DNA of 64,000 nucleotides from NCBI GenBank assembly GCA_024653215.1, contig JANLFU010000005.1:1-64000 (forward strand), in the 5' to 3' direction. Every line of letters starts with the position of its first letter. Position 1 is the first letter of the stretch. The notes under the pieces were generated by a model. That model was not told where the DNA came from. It did not search any database and worked only from the letters and a program-made list of their open reading frames with translations. A program made the translations under genes and the position numbers. The DNA comes from Candidatus Saccharicenans sp. (GTDB taxonomy: Bacteria; Acidobacteriota; Aminicenantia; Aminicenantales; Saccharicenantaceae). Shown here one piece after another: positions 54,554 to 61,592 of this stretch.

Positions 54554-54929
54554 GGCTCCCGGACCCGCGCTGAGATCGGTTCTCCGGCTGAAAACGGGGT
54601 TGTCCGAGCCTGGCTGCCCGGAAGCGATTTTGCCTTCTCCCCTGCCCACTGAGAAATGGCCAAGGCTATCACCTTCAATATCAGGCGCCGCATTGTGGCG
54701 GCAGGCCGGCAGGTGGTCGGCAATATCTACCCTGCCAACGAAACATAGTAGAGGCTGGATCATTAAATCCCGGCTTCCTGCTGCCCGGGGACAGACTGAC
54801 AGGATAGGGGCAAGACTGTCAATCTTTTTCCGCTAATGGTATATTCGCATGTTATTTTCCTTCAAATTTTTCAAATTAAGTCTTAGAGCGGGCTACGGCC
54901 GGAGGGTCGACCTCCGTCAATCCTGATGA

Positions 54930-54958
54930 TTGCCAATCACCCGCCCATCTGTTATAAA
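54930..54958 (+). promoter_or_regulatory. promoter of trmH
   Basis: TTGCCA (54930-54935), 17 bases, TATAAA (54953-54958). The predicted transcription start coincides with the GTG at 54965, and the ATG at 54926 lies before the promoter. Confidence 0.6.
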
Positions 54959-54964
54959 TCTACT

Positions 54965-55579
54965 GTGCCTACGGAGAAAAGACGCGAGCGAATTGAATCT
55001 GTTCTGTCCAGGCGCCAGCCCGACCTGCGGGTGGTCCTGGAGGATGTGGCCATCACCCACAATGCCAGCGCCGTGGCCCGGACCTGCGAGGCCACCGGGG
55101 CCTTCAACCTTCACATCATAACCAGCCAGCCCGACCAGGTTGCCTTCAACGAGGCCATCTCAACCAGGGCCGAGAAATGGCTGGCCATCCATTTCCACCA
55201 GACAACGGAAGAATGCCTATCCCTTCTTAAGACCCGGGGGTTTAAGATCGCCGTTACCACCCTGGCCGGCCAGACCATTCCTTACACCGAAATCGATTAC
55301 TGCCAGCCGCTGGCCATCGTTTTCGGGAACGAATCCGAAGGGGTTTCGGGCCGGGCCCTGGAATTCGCAGATTACCGAATCAGGATCCCTATGGTGGGCA
55401 TGGTCCAGAGCCTGAACCTTTCGGTATCGGTGGGCATCATCCTCTACGAGGCTTTCCGCCAGAGACAGGCCAGGGGATTTTACGACACCTGTCGACTCTC
55501 ACCGCAGGAATACGAGCAGTGGCTGAACCACTGGCTTGGAAATCCCAGGCCCCGCCGGCCCTTCACCCGGAAAAAATAA
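54965..55579 (+). CDS. trmH: tRNA (guanosine-18) 2'-O-methyltransferase, SpoU family
   Basis: Methylates the ribose of G18 in the tRNA D-loop; SPOUT (knotted) methyltransferase. RRQPDLRVVLEDV and HNASAVARTCEATG near the N-terminus are the TrmH signature. The SAM-binding knot has IVFGNESEGVS and IPMVGMVQSLNLSVSVGI. 204 residues from GTG 54965, which aligns with family N-termini. The longer ATG frame (54926) overlaps the -35 and -10 boxes and has no ribosome site. No Shine-Dalgarno sequence precedes the GTG, so a leaderless message is suggested. It could also act on other RNA, but TrmH is the best fit. Confidence 0.88.
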   Translation: MPTEKRRERIESVLSRRQPDLRVVLEDVAITHNASAVARTCEATGAFNLHIITSQPDQVAFNEAISTRAEKWLAIHFHQTTEECLSLLKTRGFKIAVTTLAGQTIPYTEIDYCQPLAIVFGNESEGVSGRALEFADYRIRIPMVGMVQSLNLSVSVGIILYEAFRQRQARGFYDTCRLSPQEYEQWLNHWLGNPRPRRPFTRKK

Positions 55580-55627: not shown

Positions 55628-57304
55628 TCAGATTCTTCTCATGGATTCAGGGTTCAAGGTCTGGAGTTGCCGCCCCAGTTCCCTGCTCTCTTCATAAAGT
55701 TTCTTGGCCTTTTCTTCAAGCTCGGGTTTAAGCCTGGTCATTTCTTCCTGCAACTTCTTCAACTGCTCCTCATGTTCCTTCTGCCAGGTTTCGTAGTTCT
55801 GCTTCAATTGTTCCTGGTATTCGCTGGAAGCCTCCTGCATTTCTTCCGAAAAACGCCCGAGGTCCGGCCAGTTTCTTCTCTGCTCTTCGGCCACCTCCAC
55901 TTCGGTCTTCACCTTTTTCTTTTCACGGAGAATCTCCAGGGAAATCTTCTCTCCCTTTTTCTTTTTCTGAATCTGGTCGGTCAGAGCTTCGAGAGTTTCT
56001 ACCCGCCGGCCATCGGCGGCCACGATCACATCGCCCACCTTGATCCCGGCTTTCTCGGCCGGGCTGCCGGGATTCACCCTGGCCACCAGTAAGCCGCGAC
56101 CATCCGGTACTCCAAAATACTTGGAAAGTTCCGGGTTGAGTTGCTCCAGGGCCACCCCGATGAAGCGGTAATGCTCGAAGCCAAACTCAAACTCGAACTT
56201 CTCCCCTTCTGGCAAATCCGGGAGCACCGGCCTGGCAGGCATCCCCGGCAAACGCTGAAAGAGTCCCGGAAATCGCAATTCCAGCTCCCGGCGGGCTTCT
56301 TCTTCCGGCACCGCTCCCAGCTTGACCTTAATTTCCTGGGTTTTGCCCTCTGTTTCAACGGTCAGGTTGAGATCCTGGCCGGGCCGCCTGGTCCTGATTT
56401 CCGAGACCAGCTGGTCGGAAGTGGCGATTTCTTTACCGTCAATCTTCAGTATCCTGTCACCAGGTTTCAGCTTGGCCAGCTCGGCCGGGCTTTTTTCTTC
56501 CACCCTGGTAACTATTACCCGGCCTTCGCGGTCCTCGGCAATGGAAATACCCAGCCAGCCTCTTTCCACCCGGCCCTTGGCCTTTATTTCCTGGAACACA
56601 TATTGAACCACTTCAACGGGCATGGCCATGGCCATGCCGGCAGCCGGAGCCTCGGCCTGGCTGTAAACATAGCCGGTCCCGGTGGCTTCCCTATCCCTGA
56701 ACCTGAAGACAATAGGGCTCTCCTCTGAATAGACGCCACGCAGCAACCCTACCAGTTGCCCCTTTTCATCCAGGACCGGACCTCCGCTCATGCCCGGGGT
56801 TATCCACAGGTTAAGGCGAAGACGGTCCGGGGCCGCCGAGCTGACAATGCCCTGGGTAACAGTTACGCCGGAATCGGGTGCAATTCCCAGGGCGCAGACC
56901 CAGGAACCGGGCACCAGGTTCTTGGTGGACCCAGCGGTCACAGCTGGCAATTTTTTATCCTTGACCTGAACAATGGCTATTCTGGTTTCAGGGTCAAATC
57001 CCAGAAAATTAGCTTCATAGCGGTTGCCGTTGTTATCAACCACCGCCAGCTTTTCACCCCGGGGTGAAATAAGGGCGGTGGTGGCAATATAACCTTCTTT
57101 GTCAATGACCACCCCGGTGGCCACCCTTCTCAGGCCGTCGCGCACTTCAACCCTGACCACGGCTGGCGAAACCTTCTTCACTATGTCGCTGGCATCGCGG
57201 TCAGGTTCCGGCCGAGCGCCAGAATAGGCCAGGCCAGATAAGCCTGCCAGCAAGACCAGCAGGCTGCTCAGGACCAAGCTGAACAATCTTCCTTTTCCGC
57301 TCAT
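55628..57304 (-). CDS. HtrA-like two-PDZ protein with incomplete catalytic triad (pseudoprotease)
   Basis: 558 residues, exported (signal peptide about 1-28). Residues of about 36-235 are a trypsin-like HtrA fold: SPAVVRVEV, GVVIDKEGYIATT, and TPGMSGGPVLDEKG with Ser173. At the catalytic His site the chain reads GYIATTALIS, aligned to GYVLTNNHVI of DegP, so His is Leu78. At the Asp site it reads ETRIAIVQV (Arg108) against SDIALLQI. PDZ1 spans about 245-335 and PDZ2 about 375-465, and a charged coiled coil (about 475-550) ends the protein. Peptide or folding-state sensing rather than proteolysis is inferred. Last gene of the ECF sigma operon, 11 bases after the small membrane protein gene. Confidence 0.82.
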   Translation of the reverse strand: MSGKGRLFSLVLSSLLVLLAGLSGLAYSGARPEPDRDASDIVKKVSPAVVRVEVRDGLRRVATGVVIDKEGYIATTALISPRGEKLAVVDNNGNRYEANFLGFDPETRIAIVQVKDKKLPAVTAGSTKNLVPGSWVCALGIAPDSGVTVTQGIVSSAAPDRLRLNLWITPGMSGGPVLDEKGQLVGLLRGVYSEESPIVFRFRDREATGTGYVYSQAEAPAAGMAMAMPVEVVQYVFQEIKAKGRVERGWLGISIAEDREGRVIVTRVEEKSPAELAKLKPGDRILKIDGKEIATSDQLVSEIRTRRPGQDLNLTVETEGKTQEIKVKLGAVPEEEARRELELRFPGLFQRLPGMPARPVLPDLPEGEKFEFEFGFEHYRFIGVALEQLNPELSKYFGVPDGRGLLVARVNPGSPAEKAGIKVGDVIVAADGRRVETLEALTDQIQKKKKGEKISLEILREKKKVKTEVEVAEEQRRNWPDLGRFSEEMQEASSEYQEQLKQNYETWQKEHEEQLKKLQEEMTRLKPELEEKAKKLYEESRELGRQLQTLNPESMRRI

Positions 57305-57315
57305 TTCAAACCTCC

Positions 57316-57681
57316 TCAGTAGCTGATTTGCTGAATCAAGTTATCGGACACCTGCTCCAGGATGAAGACCGTCTGAGAATCGTCGGACGAACGGCGCATT
57401 TCCCTCCTGAGGTCCAGCGGCTCGACCACGTGTACCACCTGGCCCGGACGCTCTCCCTGGTTTGTGCTGGCCATGGTGCCTACGGGCGATTTCCTGGCTG
57501 ACGGTGAGAAAATGATTATTGCGGCCAGGACCAGAGCTGCCGCCCCGGCCAGGCTGAATTCCAGCCGCCGCCACCTTAGGCTGGCCTTTTTCCTTTCGGC
57601 CAGCCGGGTCAGCACCGCCTGTTCAAAGCCCGGCGGGGCAGAGACCCGGTCCAGCCCCTGAAGGTATCTTTCAACGTCCAT
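57316..57681 (-). CDS. small single-span membrane protein, probable anti-sigma factor
   Basis: 121 residues. A cytosolic N-terminus of about 40 residues (APPGFEQAVLTRLAERKK) resembles the helical part of some anti-sigma factors. One transmembrane span lies at about 43-60 (FSLAGAAALVLAAIIIF), with a periplasmic tail of about 60 residues. It has no zinc-finger HxxxCxxC. ACGGAG precedes the ATG. Position between an ECF sigma gene (17 bases upstream) and an HtrA-like gene (11 bases downstream) is the main argument for an anti-sigma role; the family itself is not recognised. Confidence 0.6.
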   Translation of the reverse strand: MDVERYLQGLDRVSAPPGFEQAVLTRLAERKKASLRWRRLEFSLAGAAALVLAAIIIFSPSARKSPVGTMASTNQGERPGQVVHVVEPLDLRREMRRSSDDSQTVFILEQVSDNLIQQISY

Positions 57682-57698: not shown

Positions 57699-58304
57699 TT
57701 ATAATTCCAGATTTTCGTTTTCCGTTTCATTTTCTTTTCCATCTTTTCTGTTTCTTATTTCCCGGCCTTCTTCCAGCCATCGCCTCAGGTACTCGCGGCC
57801 CCGGCTGATCCTGGCCTTGACAGTGCCCAGCGGCAGCTTCAGCAGGCTGGCAATCTCCTCCTGGGAAAATCCTTCAACATCCTTTAAGATAACCGGTATC
57901 CGGTAACGGGGATGAAGCCGCCCCAGGGCCATCCTGACATTCCTCATCAAACCGGGGTCGTTATGGTCCAGAGAATAACTGCCCGAGGAATAATCGTTGG
58001 TTATTTCTTCCAGTGGAACCACCGGGTGGCGGCCGATCTTTTTCTTCTCGGTTCGGGCCAGGTTGGACGCTATGGAATAAATCCAGGCCGAAACCGGGGC
58101 AATCGGCCGGTACTTTCTGGCCTTAAAATAGACCCGCATGAAGGTTTCCTGGGCCAGGTCGACCGCCAGCTGGTAATCCCCGGTAACCTGGTACAGGAAA
58201 TTGACTATCCTGTCCTTGTAAATGGTCATGAGCTGGGCGAAGGCAGACTCGTCCCCCTCTTTCACTCTTTCCATGAGTGCCTGCTCATCCATCCTGGTAT
58301 TCAT
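57699..58304 (-). CDS. ECF-type RNA polymerase sigma factor
   Basis: Sigma-70-family alternative factor, 201 residues. Region 2 (about 20-85) has YQLAVDLAQETFMRVYFKA and the -10-reading helix WIYSIASNLART. Region 4 (about 130-185) ends with a helix-turn-helix, FSQEEIASLLKLPLGTVKARISRGREYL, whose GTVK-RxxRG core is typical. The C-terminus is a short charged tail (KDGKENETENENLEL). First gene of a three-gene operon with a membrane protein and an HtrA-like protein, so probably an envelope-stress or cell-surface regulon. It has its own housekeeping-type promoter. Confidence 0.93.
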   Translation of the reverse strand: MNTRMDEQALMERVKEGDESAFAQLMTIYKDRIVNFLYQVTGDYQLAVDLAQETFMRVYFKARKYRPIAPVSAWIYSIASNLARTEKKKIGRHPVVPLEEITNDYSSGSYSLDHNDPGLMRNVRMALGRLHPRYRIPVILKDVEGFSQEEIASLLKLPLGTVKARISRGREYLRRWLEEGREIRNRKDGKENETENENLEL

Positions 58305-58378: not shown

Positions 58379-58460
58379 AGCCCTGAGGGAAACCGTGCCG
58401 CCTGTCCTGGCCCGGAAAGGTGGCCAGGGAACTTTTTCACGGAAAATTTCGTCTACCGGG

Positions 58461-59024
58461 ATGACGTGCGTGGAAGTGAAAGAAATAGTCAGAAATTGCC
58501 TGAAAGGAGAGGCGGAAGCCTGGAAAATGCTGGTTGACCTTTATTCCCGGAAAATCTTCAACCTGGCCTACCAGTTCGCCGGCAGCCCGCAGGAAGCCGA
58601 GGACCTGACCCAGGAGATCTTCCTGAAGCTCTATAACTCCCTCGGTAAGTATGATTTCGAGCGGGACTTCAGCGCCTGGTTTCTGACCCTGGCCAGGAAT
58701 TTCCTGATTGATGAATTCCGCAGAACCAGGCTGGAGAAATCGCAACGGGCTGATTTTGAAGAACTTACAACCGCAGCCGCCGAAGCCGATGGCCCGGAAA
58801 ACCGGCTGTTGAGCCAGGAAAAAGCCGAACTGGTTAGGGAAGCCCTACTCCAGCTTTCGCCGGAATTGAGAACAGTCCTGGTACTCAGGGAAATTGAAGG
58901 ATTCAGCTACGAGGAAATCGCCCAGAAGATGAAGCTTCCTCTGGGCACGGTCAAGAGCCGGGTCAACCGGGGCCGGATCCAGATAGCTCAGGCCATCCTG
59001 GAAAAGACCGGAGGTAAGCCATGA
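58461..59024 (+). CDS. ECF-type RNA polymerase sigma factor
   Basis: Second sigma factor of the ECF type, about 187 residues from ATG 58461. A GTG at 58395 would add 22 residues that do not fit the family, and the ribosome site is weak for both, so the start is uncertain. Region 2: SPQEAEDLTQEIFLKLYNS and FSAWFLTLARNFLIDEFRR. Region 4: FSYEEIAQKMKLPLGTVKSRVNRG. Its stop overlaps the anti-sigma gene by four bases (ATGA). It is divergent from the first ECF gene across about 150 bases, so both may be regulated together. Confidence 0.92.
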   Translation: MTCVEVKEIVRNCLKGEAEAWKMLVDLYSRKIFNLAYQFAGSPQEAEDLTQEIFLKLYNSLGKYDFERDFSAWFLTLARNFLIDEFRRTRLEKSQRADFEELTTAAAEADGPENRLLSQEKAELVREALLQLSPELRTVLVLREIEGFSYEEIAQKMKLPLGTVKSRVNRGRIQIAQAILEKTGGKP

Positions 59025-59530
59025 ACTGTGACCGGGTCCAACTGCTGTTTTCGGACTATCTCGAAGGCGAGCTCCAGCCTGAGGTTAAGAAAGAACTGGA
59101 GGCCCACCTGGCCGCCTGCCCGGACTGCTCCCGCCTGCTGGAAGCCACCCGGAGCCTGGCCTCAGAGTGGCCGAGGCTGCCCGAAATGGAACCGCCAGCC
59201 GGCTTGATCCAGAAGCTTTATCTCATCCCGGAAACCGCTTCAGGGCGCAAGAAAGCCTGGTCATTCGGCTGGAAATTCTGGCTGAGCCCGGCCTTCCAGC
59301 CTGTCCTGACTTCCCTGACCGTGGTCATGGTGGTTTTCTCCCTCCTGACCTTCACCACGCCGGGCCGGAGCCTTAAAAAATCAGCGGCCCTGGAACTGCG
59401 CCGCACCTACAGCCTGGCCCAGAAAACCCTGGTCCGGGCCGGAGTTCTCAAGGACAAGCTACAGGGCTACCGCGAAAATTTCATAGCTTCTCTCGAAGCT
59501 AAGAATATCTATAAATCTGACAAGAACTAA
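59021..59530 (+). CDS. zinc-finger anti-sigma factor with one membrane span
   Basis: 169 residues. The N-terminal zf-HC2/ZAS zinc finger has C3, H29, C33 and C36 (HLAACPDC). One membrane span lies at about residues 93-113 (VLTSLTVVMVVFSLLTF). The periplasmic tail is short and helical. ATGA overlap with the sigma gene couples the pair, the standard arrangement for ECF sigma and anti-sigma. It should hold the sigma factor at the inner membrane until a signal arrives. The tail is shorter than in RseA-type anti-sigmas, so how it is inactivated is unclear. Confidence 0.88.
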   Translation: MNCDRVQLLFSDYLEGELQPEVKKELEAHLAACPDCSRLLEATRSLASEWPRLPEMEPPAGLIQKLYLIPETASGRKKAWSFGWKFWLSPAFQPVLTSLTVVMVVFSLLTFTTPGRSLKKSAALELRRTYSLAQKTLVRAGVLKDKLQGYRENFIASLEAKNIYKSDKN

Positions 59531-59542
59531 TGGAGGTTTAAC

Positions 59543-60046
59543 TTGGAAGAAAAAATCAAGATCGAACAAAAACCAGCCAAGTCACCGGTACTGGCCGGAA
59601 TCTTCTCGGCCATCTTTCCCGGGACGGGAGCCATCTACAACGGGAGTTACCTCAAGGGCATCCTGTACATCATCATCTTTGCCGGCCTGATTTCCATTCA
59701 GGGCCGCGGCGGGCAACCGTTCGTCGGCCTGATGCTGGCCGGCTTCTACTTTTTCCAGATCATAGATGCCGTAAACGAGGCCAGGAGAATATCCACAGCC
59801 GGCCAGCCTGAACCCTCTCCGGGAACCAGGCTGTCGGTAGAAGCCGAGGTGGACATTTCCCGGCCCTCAGGTTCCATCTCCTGGGGAATCATACTCATTC
59901 TCCTGGGCGGCCTGTTCCTTCTGGCCAACTACGAGGTCATCAGCTACGACGCCCTGATCGATTACTGGCCGCTGGCCCTGATCGGCCTGGGCCTGAAGTT
60001 GCTGGCCGATTATTTTATTGGCAAGAAATCAGCCAAGAAATCATGA
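59543..60046 (+). CDS. membrane protein with LiaI/LiaF-like C-terminal domain
   Basis: 167 residues, TTG start set by TGGAGG with correct spacing. The N-terminal half (FSAIFPGTGAIYNGSYLKGILYII) has two to three hydrophobic spans like DUF5683/TM2 proteins. The C-terminal half (GIILILLGGLFLLANYEVI, WPLALIGLGLKLL) matches the LiaI/LiaF-type DUF5668 pattern of two short spans. Such proteins work with envelope-stress sensors. It follows the anti-sigma gene by 12 bases and precedes another DUF5668 protein gene by 12 bases. Confidence 0.75.
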   Translation: MEEKIKIEQKPAKSPVLAGIFSAIFPGTGAIYNGSYLKGILYIIIFAGLISIQGRGGQPFVGLMLAGFYFFQIIDAVNEARRISTAGQPEPSPGTRLSVEAEVDISRPSGSISWGIILILLGGLFLLANYEVISYDALIDYWPLALIGLGLKLLADYFIGKKSAKKS

Positions 60047-60058
60047 GGAGGAAAAACC

Positions 60059-60307
60059 ATGTCAAGAAGACATAGAGACAACTTAATCTGGGGTTTAATC
60101 CTGGTGGTAATCGGGGCCATTTTCCTTCTGGAAAACATCGGCTACGATGCCTGGCGGTACCTGTTCAAGCTCTGGCCCCTGATCCTAATCTTCTGGGGAG
60201 CTTCCAAGCTGTACTACGGAATCAAGGCCCGGAGCCAGGCTTCAGAACCTAAAGCCGGGGTCATCGAAGCGGAGATACTTCCCGGGGACAAAAAAGATGA
60301 AAGCTAA
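60059..60307 (+). CDS. small DUF5668 (LiaI/LiaF-like) membrane protein
   Basis: 82 residues with two hydrophobic spans, WGLILVVIGAIFLLENIGY and WPLILIFWGASKLYYG, the DUF5668 pattern, then a short charged tail. AGGAGG is 7 bases before the ATG. It overlaps the downstream DUF4097 gene by 11 bases, so expression of the two is coupled. Its C-terminal half repeats the domain of the gene just upstream, which suggests they interact or arose by duplication. No enzyme activity is expected. Confidence 0.78.
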   Translation: MSRRHRDNLIWGLILVVIGAIFLLENIGYDAWRYLFKLWPLILIFWGASKLYYGIKARSQASEPKAGVIEAEILPGDKKDES

Positions 60308-61592
60308 GGAAGTCCTGCTCCTGATTCTTATCGTCGTGGTCGGAGTCGGTTTGCATTACCTGGATAACCTGAAACTGACGATAGATGACTGGGAAGTCGG
60401 CTCTATCTTCCGAGGCGAGTCCTTTCTTTTTGAGGAAGTTAAGACCGAAGCTCCGGCCGGCACCCTGGAAATCGTCAACAGCCACGGCAGCATCCAGATT
60501 GAGGGCGTGGAAACACAGGCAATAGAAATTGCCTTCGAAAAGAGAGTCTGGAGAAAGACCGAGCAGGAGGCCAGGGAGATAGCCGACCAGATAAAATTAC
60601 TGGCCACCAGGGACAGCCAGAGACTCCTCCTGACCACCAACCGCGATACCTTCCGCAAAAAAAATTTCACCACCAGTTATCGGGTGCGAGTTCCAAGAGA
60701 CACCTCGATCTCTGTCAGGAATTCATACGGCCTGGTCCGCATCGCCGGGGTCAAAGAGGTTGAACTGGAAAACCGGCAGGGCCGGGTGGATATAGTCGAA
60801 GTTTCGGGCCCGGTCCGGGTTCAAAATTCCTACGAAAAAGTTTCCATAATGGACGTCGAAGGGGAATGCCGCCTGGAAACAAAGCATTCTTCGGCCCTGC
60901 TCAGCCGGATTGCCGGCCCGGTCCTGGTGAATTGCGCCTACGAGAACCTGGAACTTTTCGACCTCAAGAGCAGTCTCGACCTGGAATCCAGGCATACTAG
61001 GATCAAGGCGGTCAGAATCGCCGGCCCTTCAAAAATCTCCGGTTCCTACGAGCAAATCAGCCTGAGCGAAACCGGCCCGACCATCATAAGGGGTCATCAT
61101 TCGCCGGTGGAAGTTGACACGGCCCGGGGACAGCTGGAAATAGAAACCAGTTACGAAAGAATCAGGCTGGCCGACCTCGAGGGCGACCTGGTGATCAGGG
61201 CCAGGAGCTCAAGAGTTGATGTGACCGGGGCCAGGGCCGCCCGCCTGCAGGTTGAAACCTCTTACGAGCCGGTCAACCTGGAGGACTTCAGCGGCCAGCT
61301 CGAGCTTAAATTAAAACACGCCAACCTGACCCTGTCTCCGCTCAACCTGGATTACCCGATTCTGGCCACCACCGAATACGGCAACATAAAGTTCTTCTGG
61401 CCCGAAAACCAGACGGCCCGGCTGGAGGCCAGCAGCAAGGGCGGGCGCATATCCTGGCAGCTCCCCTTCTCCCCCGATGAAAACACCACAAACGGCCTGG
61501 CCGTGGTCAGGGCCTATAGCGGGGCTGCTAACCGGCCAGAGATCAAGCTGAGCACCAGTTATGGAAATATTGATATTCTAAGGAAGGAATGA
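60297..61592 (+). CDS. DUF4097-type beta-repeat protein, membrane anchored
   Basis: 431 residues. A short hydrophobic segment at residues 5-20 is a likely signal anchor. The rest is beta-strand repeats of the DUF4097 (putative adhesin / LiaF C-terminal) type. Tyr of an S-Y-[EG] motif recurs at 144, 179, 215, 251, 286, 323 and 361, every 35-38 residues, with a His/Arg-type strand between each pair, which predicts a beta solenoid. Last gene of the second ECF operon, overlapping the DUF5668 gene. Likely exposed outside the inner membrane as a sensor or structural part; function inferred from family and position. Confidence 0.8.
   Translation: MKAKEVLLLILIVVVGVGLHYLDNLKLTIDDWEVGSIFRGESFLFEEVKTEAPAGTLEIVNSHGSIQIEGVETQAIEIAFEKRVWRKTEQEAREIADQIKLLATRDSQRLLLTTNRDTFRKKNFTTSYRVRVPRDTSISVRNSYGLVRIAGVKEVELENRQGRVDIVEVSGPVRVQNSYEKVSIMDVEGECRLETKHSSALLSRIAGPVLVNCAYENLELFDLKSSLDLESRHTRIKAVRIAGPSKISGSYEQISLSETGPTIIRGHHSPVEVDTARGQLEIETSYERIRLADLEGDLVIRARSSRVDVTGARAARLQVETSYEPVNLEDFSGQLELKLKHANLTLSPLNLDYPILATTEYGNIKFFWPENQTARLEASSKGGRISWQLPFSPDENTTNGLAVVRAYSGAANRPEIKLSTSYGNIDILRKE

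Follow-up and report, generated by a model that had tools for sequence, protein, structure and literature searches.

A conserved ECF sigma operon of the Aminicenantia pairs an HtrA-like protein lacking catalytic His and Asp with a probable anti-sigma factor that carries a candidate ligand tail

Signalling through a cascade of proteases has its textbook example in the envelope stress systems of the sigma-E type. In the DegS-RseA-RseB-RpoE system of E. coli and the AlgW-MucA-MucB-AlgU system of P. aeruginosa, an ECF sigma factor and a one-pass anti-sigma factor are joined by an envelope HtrA-type PDZ protein, which cuts the anti-sigma factor; the ligands are the free tails of outer-membrane proteins or of MucE, and the activating peptides are described as ending YxF or WVF. 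A sigE-rseA-htrA operon is also known from mycobacteria and their relatives. CnrYXH of Cupriavidus metallidurans, as described, combines an ECF sigma factor and a short class II membrane anti-sigma factor with a periplasmic sensor, CnrX, which binds metal and is thought to act by conformational change. CnrX is not known to be HtrA-like. Anti-sigma factors of class II (CnrY-like) wrap sigma2 and sigma4 with two helices. HtrA-derived pseudoproteases have been described too, among them MamO of the magnetosome, which has Thr for Ser and binds metal, and PflC of the Campylobacter flagellar motor, which lacks the triad, has two PDZ-like domains and serves as a structural scaffold. As far as these descriptions go, HtrA pseudoproteases, ECF switches with an active HtrA and an ECF switch with a conformational sensor are each already known. 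Searching open-licence literature by title and the start of the abstract, a scope that most subscription papers fall outside, we found no description of an ECF operon with both a dead HtrA and a ligand-bearing anti-sigma factor.

The window analysed here is a stretch of 64,000 nucleotides from a genome of Candidatus Saccharicenans sp. (contig JANLFU010000005.1). It holds a three-gene operon that runs from an ECF sigma factor through a 121-aa one-pass membrane protein to an HtrA-like protein, here called the pseudo-HtrA (Table 1). The original prediction, made from sequence alone, had placed the last gene in an ECF sigma operon, which is what we find, with the gene for the 121-aa protein lying between it and the sigma gene. 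Like the DegS and AlgW systems, the locus brings together an ECF sigma factor, a one-pass (putative) anti-sigma factor and an envelope HtrA-type PDZ protein. In contrast to those systems, the protein in the HtrA slot has neither the catalytic His nor the Asp, and the anti-sigma factor that we infer would itself carry the candidate tail. The likeness to CnrYXH, drawn from its description, lies in the ECF sigma factor, the short membrane anti-sigma factor (here putative) and the proposed extracytoplasmic partner. Unlike the pseudo-HtrA, MamO and PflC are not tied to a sigma factor in their descriptions.

Table 1 Features of the sigma operon and its surroundings, in positions of the window.
Feature	Position	Strand	Basis
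TrmH-like methyltransferase gene, converging on the operon from downstream	54926-55579	+	Pfam, NCBIfam
Pseudo-HtrA, 558 aa	55628-57304	-	ATG start; likely export signal, trypsin fold (no His/Asp), PDZ pair, helical C-terminus
N-terminal hydrophobic segment, likely Sec signal, residues 1-30	57215-57304	-	Sequence; model helix 4-25; signal judged by eye
Degenerate trypsin-like domain, about residues 40-236	56597-57187	-	Pfam Trypsin_2 62-187; AF2 model; Foldseek to DegQ, DegP, DegS, AlgW
Leu78 codon CTT, catalytic His position	57071-57073	-	Codon read by eye; alignment
Arg108 codon AGA, catalytic Asp position	56981-56983	-	Codon read by eye; alignment
Ser173 codon AGC, in GMSGGP, retained	56786-56788	-	Codon read by eye; alignment
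Loop 191-222, insertion relative to aligned canonical HtrAs, near former substrate cleft	56639-56734	-	Alignment; pLDDT <50
PDZ1, residues 250-329, RGWLGI loop just before	56318-56557	-	Pfam; alignment
PDZ2, about residues 377-473, FIGV loop kept	55886-56176	-	Pfam; alignment
C-terminal helical region, residues 487-558	55631-55846	-	AF2 model
Membrane protein of 121 aa, one pass; putative minimal anti-sigma factor, no zinc motif	57316-57681	-	
Anti-sigma-like N-terminus (APPGFE...VL..L..RK), residues 1-36	57574-57681	-	(Near-)invariant residues; also in proteins that follow ECF sigma genes in other parts of the phylum
Transmembrane segment, about residues 40-58	57508-57564	-	Hydropathy 2.35, 19-residue window; model helix 19-58
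Conserved C-terminal tail TVFILEQVSDNLIQQISY, candidate pseudo-HtrA ligand	57319-57372	-	Conservation; tail comparison
ECF sigma factor, first gene of the operon	57699-58304	-	Pfam, NCBIfam; neighbourhood scan
Second, divergent ECF sigma gene	58395-59024	+	Pfam
Divergent second ECF operon: sigma, zf-HC2 anti-sigma, two LiaI/LiaF-like membrane proteins, DUF4097 protein	58395-61592	+	Pfam

The order of the three genes is conserved. A sigma gene and an intervening small ORF were present at 81/81 orthologues with at least 800 nt of upstream DNA, the remaining 5 of the 86 orthologues lying close to contig ends. With the window protein as query (phmmer, E up to 1e-3), the small protein itself was found upstream of 84/86; the two loci with no match, L086 and L125, have 100 and 0 nt of upstream DNA. 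In the sister orders of the class, 26 of 34 pseudo-HtrAs have a sigma gene within 700 nt, 25 of these with a small ORF, and eight have no sigma gene detected within this distance (L155, L160, L174, L179, L180, L183, L184 and L186). At five of those eight (L174, L179, L180, L183 and L186) a large upstream ORF ends IWYYY. None of the 28 canonical HtrAs with enough DNA, which come mostly from other phyla, has a sigma gene within 700 nt. Five actinobacterial ones, from Williamsia and Gordonia (L050-L053 and L061), have a sigma gene that ends 1242-1335 nt upstream in the same direction, leaving room for another gene, as in the sigE-rseA-htrA arrangement. These five HtrAs keep H, D and S, fall on the canonical side of our tree, unlike the pseudo-HtrA, and have an aligned part of about 340 residues, which by its length has room for one PDZ domain. 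As for the wider surroundings, among the 31 loci of the order and G153 (a genome of another order) with at least 3.5 kb upstream, the convergent TrmH-like gene recurs in 30 and the divergent second ECF operon in 14; the 21 sister-order loci examined showed neither of them.

Pfam matches over the cut-offs place a Trypsin_2 domain (2.5e-23) and two PDZ_2 stretches (1.6e-38) in the pseudo-HtrA, so that both PDZ domains named in the original prediction stand. Across the family the RGWLG[VI] loop is kept and the IGV loop mostly kept. The nearest NCBIfam family is Do/DegP, although TIGR02037 scores 230 bits against a cut-off of 416.2; the DegS model TIGR02038 also falls short (160.7 against 422.95 bits), and the two PDZ stretches differ from the single PDZ domain that is a feature of DegS. 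The AF2 model (30 rows; mean pLDDT 73.5, pTM 0.50) has a beta-rich protease-like domain, with block means of 71-91 over residues 41-190; it also shows both PDZ domains and a long helix near the C-terminus (487-550). Comparison with DegS and DegP had been proposed as a check, and the model is HtrA-like in fold: chains of DegQ, DegP, AlgW, MucD and DegS are among its top 50 Foldseek matches, at E values of 2.0e-30 to 3.8e-22 and query TM-scores of 0.35-0.46. The protein thus has the trypsin fold followed by PDZ domains of the HtrA/Do family (Pfam; Foldseek E 2.0e-30 to DegQ), and does not have its His-Asp-Ser triad, with Leu78, Arg108 and Ser173 in these positions. A separate observation concerns the pseudo-HtrA's own C-terminus (window 55631-55639), which is I or V in 57/83 proteins, often as RRI or IKV, some of the 83 being cut by contig ends; it is possible that this end is a self-ligand for the PDZ domains that would compete with the tail described below.

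To place the triad we aligned 86 orthologues (from 85 genomes of the order and G153) with 36 relatives that belong to sister orders in the class, and with 32 HtrAs of the canonical kind, after merging identical trimmed proteins. The canonical group is defined by H, D and S at the triad positions; it comprises the remaining aligned HtrAs besides L008 and the pseudo-HtrA family. Outside the three groups are L008, which is a further Trypsin_2 protein encoded in the genome, and L134, a second contig piece of the G093 gene. Because the canonical HtrAs place H, D and S in the three columns, we take the register to be right. In this MAFFT register residues 78, 108 and 173 of the window protein are L, R and S, which agrees with the earlier placement of Leu78 and Arg108 at the catalytic His and Asp positions. 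The His column is Leu in 86/86 orthologues. The Asp column holds no Asp in any of them (H34 R26 Q15 G7 N3 S1). Ser173 in GMSGGP, also noted before, is present in 86/86, as are Gly171, Gly174 and Pro176. A misplacement of the catalytic His or Asp by the alignment can be ruled out, since the canonical HtrAs are in register and no protease-domain column except 108 shows His in over 30% of the 86 orthologues. The conserved Asp104 was considered as catalytic Asp and rejected: it corresponds to the Asp of GxDP, four positions before the catalytic Asp in most of the aligned canonical HtrAs.

The same changes reach well beyond one genome. Strong pseudo-HtrA matches were found in 19/19 genomes of the genus, 32/34 of the family and 85/94 of the order, including 45/45 of the good-quality ones; class-wide, 125/142 genomes match at 1e-20, a count that takes in some ordinary HtrAs (L187 and L188). 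The nearest named records are metagenome-assembled genomes of Candidatus Aminicenantes and Candidatus Saccharicenans, at 93-94% identity, and nearly all the named records that we met for this class are metagenome-assembled. In the 36 sister-order relatives the His column is V19 I13 L3 with one gap, the Asp column G18 S14 A3 R1, and the Ser column A18 S15 T2 I1, with Ser replaced in 21. A search for homologues with triad changes beside ECF sigma genes, as had been suggested, finds 86 orthologues lacking His and Asp, with a sigma gene at 81/81 of the loci that have at least 800 nt upstream. Sequencing error or decay in a single genome can be ruled out, the loss being fixed in 86/86. A maximum-likelihood tree was built from 97 rows, comprising 29 orthologues out of the 86, all 36 relatives and all 32 canonical HtrAs, with long-branch warnings for some rows. 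One branch with support of 100/100 separates the canonical from the pseudo rows, as expected for a single origin. Together with the column patterns, the tree indicates that the loss of His and Asp probably predates the split of the orders, and that Ser disappeared afterwards in part of one side. On these comparisons the triad loss is an old lineage trait and not decay in one genome. As in HtrA-derived pseudoproteases of the MamO and PflC kind, a degenerate triad appears to have been kept by selection, with the fold motifs conserved across the 86 orthologues.

The loss of His and Asp fixed across the order, joined by the loss of Ser in 21/36 sister-order relatives, strongly supports the reading of the original prediction that the pseudo-HtrA is catalytically dead. 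One might still propose that Ser173 remains nucleophilic, its base having moved elsewhere or a partner activating it, as would suit the invariance of Ser173 and its GxSGxP loop in 86/86 orthologues and the His found in the Asp column of 34/86. We consider such a cryptic enzyme very improbable. Apart from 108, His does not exceed 30% of the 86 in any column of the protease domain, Ser has given way to Ala, Thr or Ile in 21/36 sister-order relatives, 18 of them beside a sigma gene, and 0/22 pseudo-HtrAs of the same operon type in other parts of the phylum have a GxSGG-type loop. Simple decay would not predict the invariance of Ser173, Gly171, Gly174 and Pro176, which points to a loop that something still uses, in a retained structural or binding role. 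With no His or Asp, cutting of its own anti-sigma factor by the pseudo-HtrA is unlikely.

The 121-aa protein has a conserved N-terminus, a transmembrane segment, a variable linker and a conserved end. Among 83 small proteins of the order and G153, A15 and P16 are present in 100% and F19 and E20 in 98%, and E87, L108 and E109 in 100%. The AF2 model of the single chain (mean pLDDT 60.4) has helices at 3-8 and 19-58, with the tail modelled at low confidence. The window protein matches no Pfam family. Pfam searches with 50 small proteins gave scattered weak matches to 35 families; among the 25 of these families listed, the only anti-sigma one was Sigma_reg_N, in one member at E 0.11. An identity as a zinc (ZAS) anti-sigma factor was ruled out, as the protein has no Cys and hence no HxxxCxxC.

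We then ran a profile of 50 small proteins (A2) on 297 genomes of the phylum. It gave 20 full-length matches, all in the class, and 59 weaker ones, mostly over the N-terminal half. Of the weaker matches, 57 places in 56 genomes were fetched, one of them in the class (G349, L261); the remaining two (G210 and G228) are class members already included. An ECF sigma gene lies upstream in 56/57 of the fetched places, and 32/57 of the proteins there have the HxxxCxxC pattern. Two HxxxCxxC proteins were scanned, one reaching 21.4 bits with zf-HC2 (cut-off 22.2) and the other giving no match. The 121-aa protein is therefore very probably an anti-sigma factor, given that its N-terminal half resembles proteins whose genes directly follow those of ECF sigma factors: like ECF anti-sigma factors it is a one-pass membrane protein encoded directly after an ECF sigma gene, and the A2 matches relate its sequence to known or probable anti-sigma factors. 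Among the matched anti-sigma-like proteins without HxxxCxxC that are encoded after ECF sigma genes, several (L207, L210 and L211, and by eye also L216) carry a C-terminal PDZ-like domain of their own; three were scanned, each giving a PDZ match at E 1e-5 or better, of which two exceed the Pfam cut-off and that of L207 lies just below it.

The extreme C-terminus of the small protein is strongly conserved. Its last residue is Y in 81 and F in 2 of the 83 proteins, so that all end in an aromatic residue, and I or V stands two residues before the end in 72/83. A [YF][IL]LE motif is found in 83/83, in 77 of them 16 residues from the end. As a control, Y or F is the last residue in 10/83 of the sigma proteins encoded at these loci, so that the aromatic tail does not reflect an overall bias there. 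In the sister orders the last residue of 26 small proteins is I21 L4 Y1, and in 24 that were aligned one Tyr before the end is invariant, with RYxLEPV as the majority sequence; L185 gave no small ORF.

A similar pairing was found elsewhere in the phylum. At 22/57 of the fetched places a pseudo-HtrA-like gene directly follows the small protein, and all 22 small proteins carry HxxxCxxC. Neighbours not counted as pseudo-HtrAs were those of L217 (overlapping-frame noise), of L222, L240 and L250 (one PDZ domain) and of L254 (no protease region aligned). From the 22 we built two profiles, A5 with 15 and A6 with 5 members, L205 and L212 being left out. Both match the window family with hhalign probability 100, at E 1.7e-47 (window residues 40-478) and 7.5e-42 (60-477). 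A5 matches 277/297 genomes, many over the PDZ part only, and exceeds 200 bits in 27/297, which include the genomes of its 15 members. In all 22 the triad columns are free of His and Asp and a GxSGG-type motif is missing, with Ser aligned in two; these proteins are very divergent, which makes the MAFFT placement of their triad columns uncertain.

The tails of the anti-sigma-like proteins differ with the neighbour. They end in F, W, Y or H in 22/22 places with a pseudo-HtrA next to them and in 4/35 without one (Fisher p 4e-12, uncorrected for relatedness, the loci being related by descent). If the four doubtful loci (L222, L240, L250 and L254) are taken as partners, the counts become 22/26 and 4/31 (Fisher p 4e-8), and if H is not counted as aromatic, 6/22 and 2/35. 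The grouping was made after the tails had been seen, H is counted, the loci are related and three of the 35 (L215, L233 and L259) end at or near a contig end, where the neighbour is not visible, which makes the p-value descriptive. A Y/F...V/I-S-H/Y pattern, as in EYFIRNVSH, fits 17/22 tails, and the remaining ones end QHVF, QHIF, TVSF, VVIF and SRVW. The xVF and xIF ends among them resemble YVF and WVF, given as activating peptides of DegS and AlgW (PMC8545111).

The earlier suggestion that the pseudo-HtrA works by binding gains from this a candidate ligand that it had not named, the conserved anti-sigma tail; the binding itself is what we infer. The means of cutting are lost, the PDZ domains are kept and the neighbouring protein exposes a conserved C-terminus, for which docking is the simplest account. 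On the strength of these sequence comparisons we think it probable that the exported, dead HtrA-like protein is a dedicated non-cutting partner that binds the anti-sigma tail and gates the release of the sigma factor. That the tail binds the pseudo-HtrA is likely, and the cell may in this way sense envelope damage by binding rather than cutting. The short cytoplasmic segment of the anti-sigma factor would hold the ECF sigma factor at the membrane, and its extracytoplasmic tail, with the hydrophobic-x-aromatic C-terminus, would dock on the pseudo-HtrA. The most likely site is a PDZ groove, perhaps together with the former substrate cleft, and the docked tail would be held or shielded. Under envelope stress, competing C-termini such as those of unfolded outer-membrane proteins might release the tail, and the anti-sigma factor would then change state or become open to the active HtrA and RseP proteases of the genome, freeing the sigma factor.

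In the window, FYLNY and RFSF are the ends of two TonB-type proteins encoded upstream of trmH; these ends are close to the I-x-Y of the tail, which suggests that unfolded outer-membrane proteins may compete with it. Such competition fits less well in the sister orders, where 25/26 tails end in I or L. These non-aromatic tails and the 8/34 sister-order loci with no detected sigma neighbour count against the docking reading, as does the invariance of the Ser173 loop in the 86 orthologues. We hold more tentatively to a wider proposal, which we would put at somewhat below even, that this Acidobacteriota lineage senses envelope damage by tail competition, with a dead HtrA as the reversible, non-cutting receptor for an anti-sigma tail that resembles an outer-membrane protein end, and that the pairing recurs outside the class with more eroded protease domains.

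The genome also encodes two HtrAs with H, D and S and an RseP homologue (322.7 bits), and their presence leaves a protected-then-cut scheme like that of RseB and RseA equally open. In this special form of the docking explanation the sigma factor would still be released by cutting, with another protease: the pseudo-HtrA would protect the tail from an active HtrA acting at site 1, stress would remove the pseudo-HtrA, and RseP would cut second. RseB has a fold different from that of HtrA, and the pseudo-HtrA has the HtrA fold, not that of RseB. The precedent is that RseB and MucB are described as acting so for RseA and MucA (PMC4598750, PMC8545111), and with these points on both sides we regard such a shield as a possible but doubtful account.

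HtrA proteins can act as chaperones, and a further alternative makes the pseudo-HtrA a DegP-like holdase of the regulon, which would sit beside the sigma gene only through autoregulation and make no contact with the anti-sigma factor. The conserved loops and C-terminal helix of the pseudo-HtrA would suit such a protein, as would the eight sister-order members with no adjoining sigma gene detected. This alternative leaves unexplained the conserved anti-sigma tail, the co-occurrence of such tails with pseudo-HtrAs across the phylum and the PDZ-anti-sigma fusions, and we judge it unlikely. If the pseudo-HtrA is the non-cutting partner that we favour, a conserved operon with a dead sensor protease would show that the reading of peptides by PDZ domains is separable from cutting, and would add transcriptional control to the roles described for HtrA pseudoproteases such as MamO and PflC.

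Two more degenerate Trypsin_2 proteins are encoded in the same genome (C11:67969-68334, L193, and C22:268843-269232, L194). By eye, one of them lacks His and Asp and has GNSGAP, and the other has a likely His and Asp but a Cys close to where Ser would stand, and is rich in repeats in its C-terminal part. With the pseudo-HtrA included, three of the five Trypsin_2 domains of this genome look altered.
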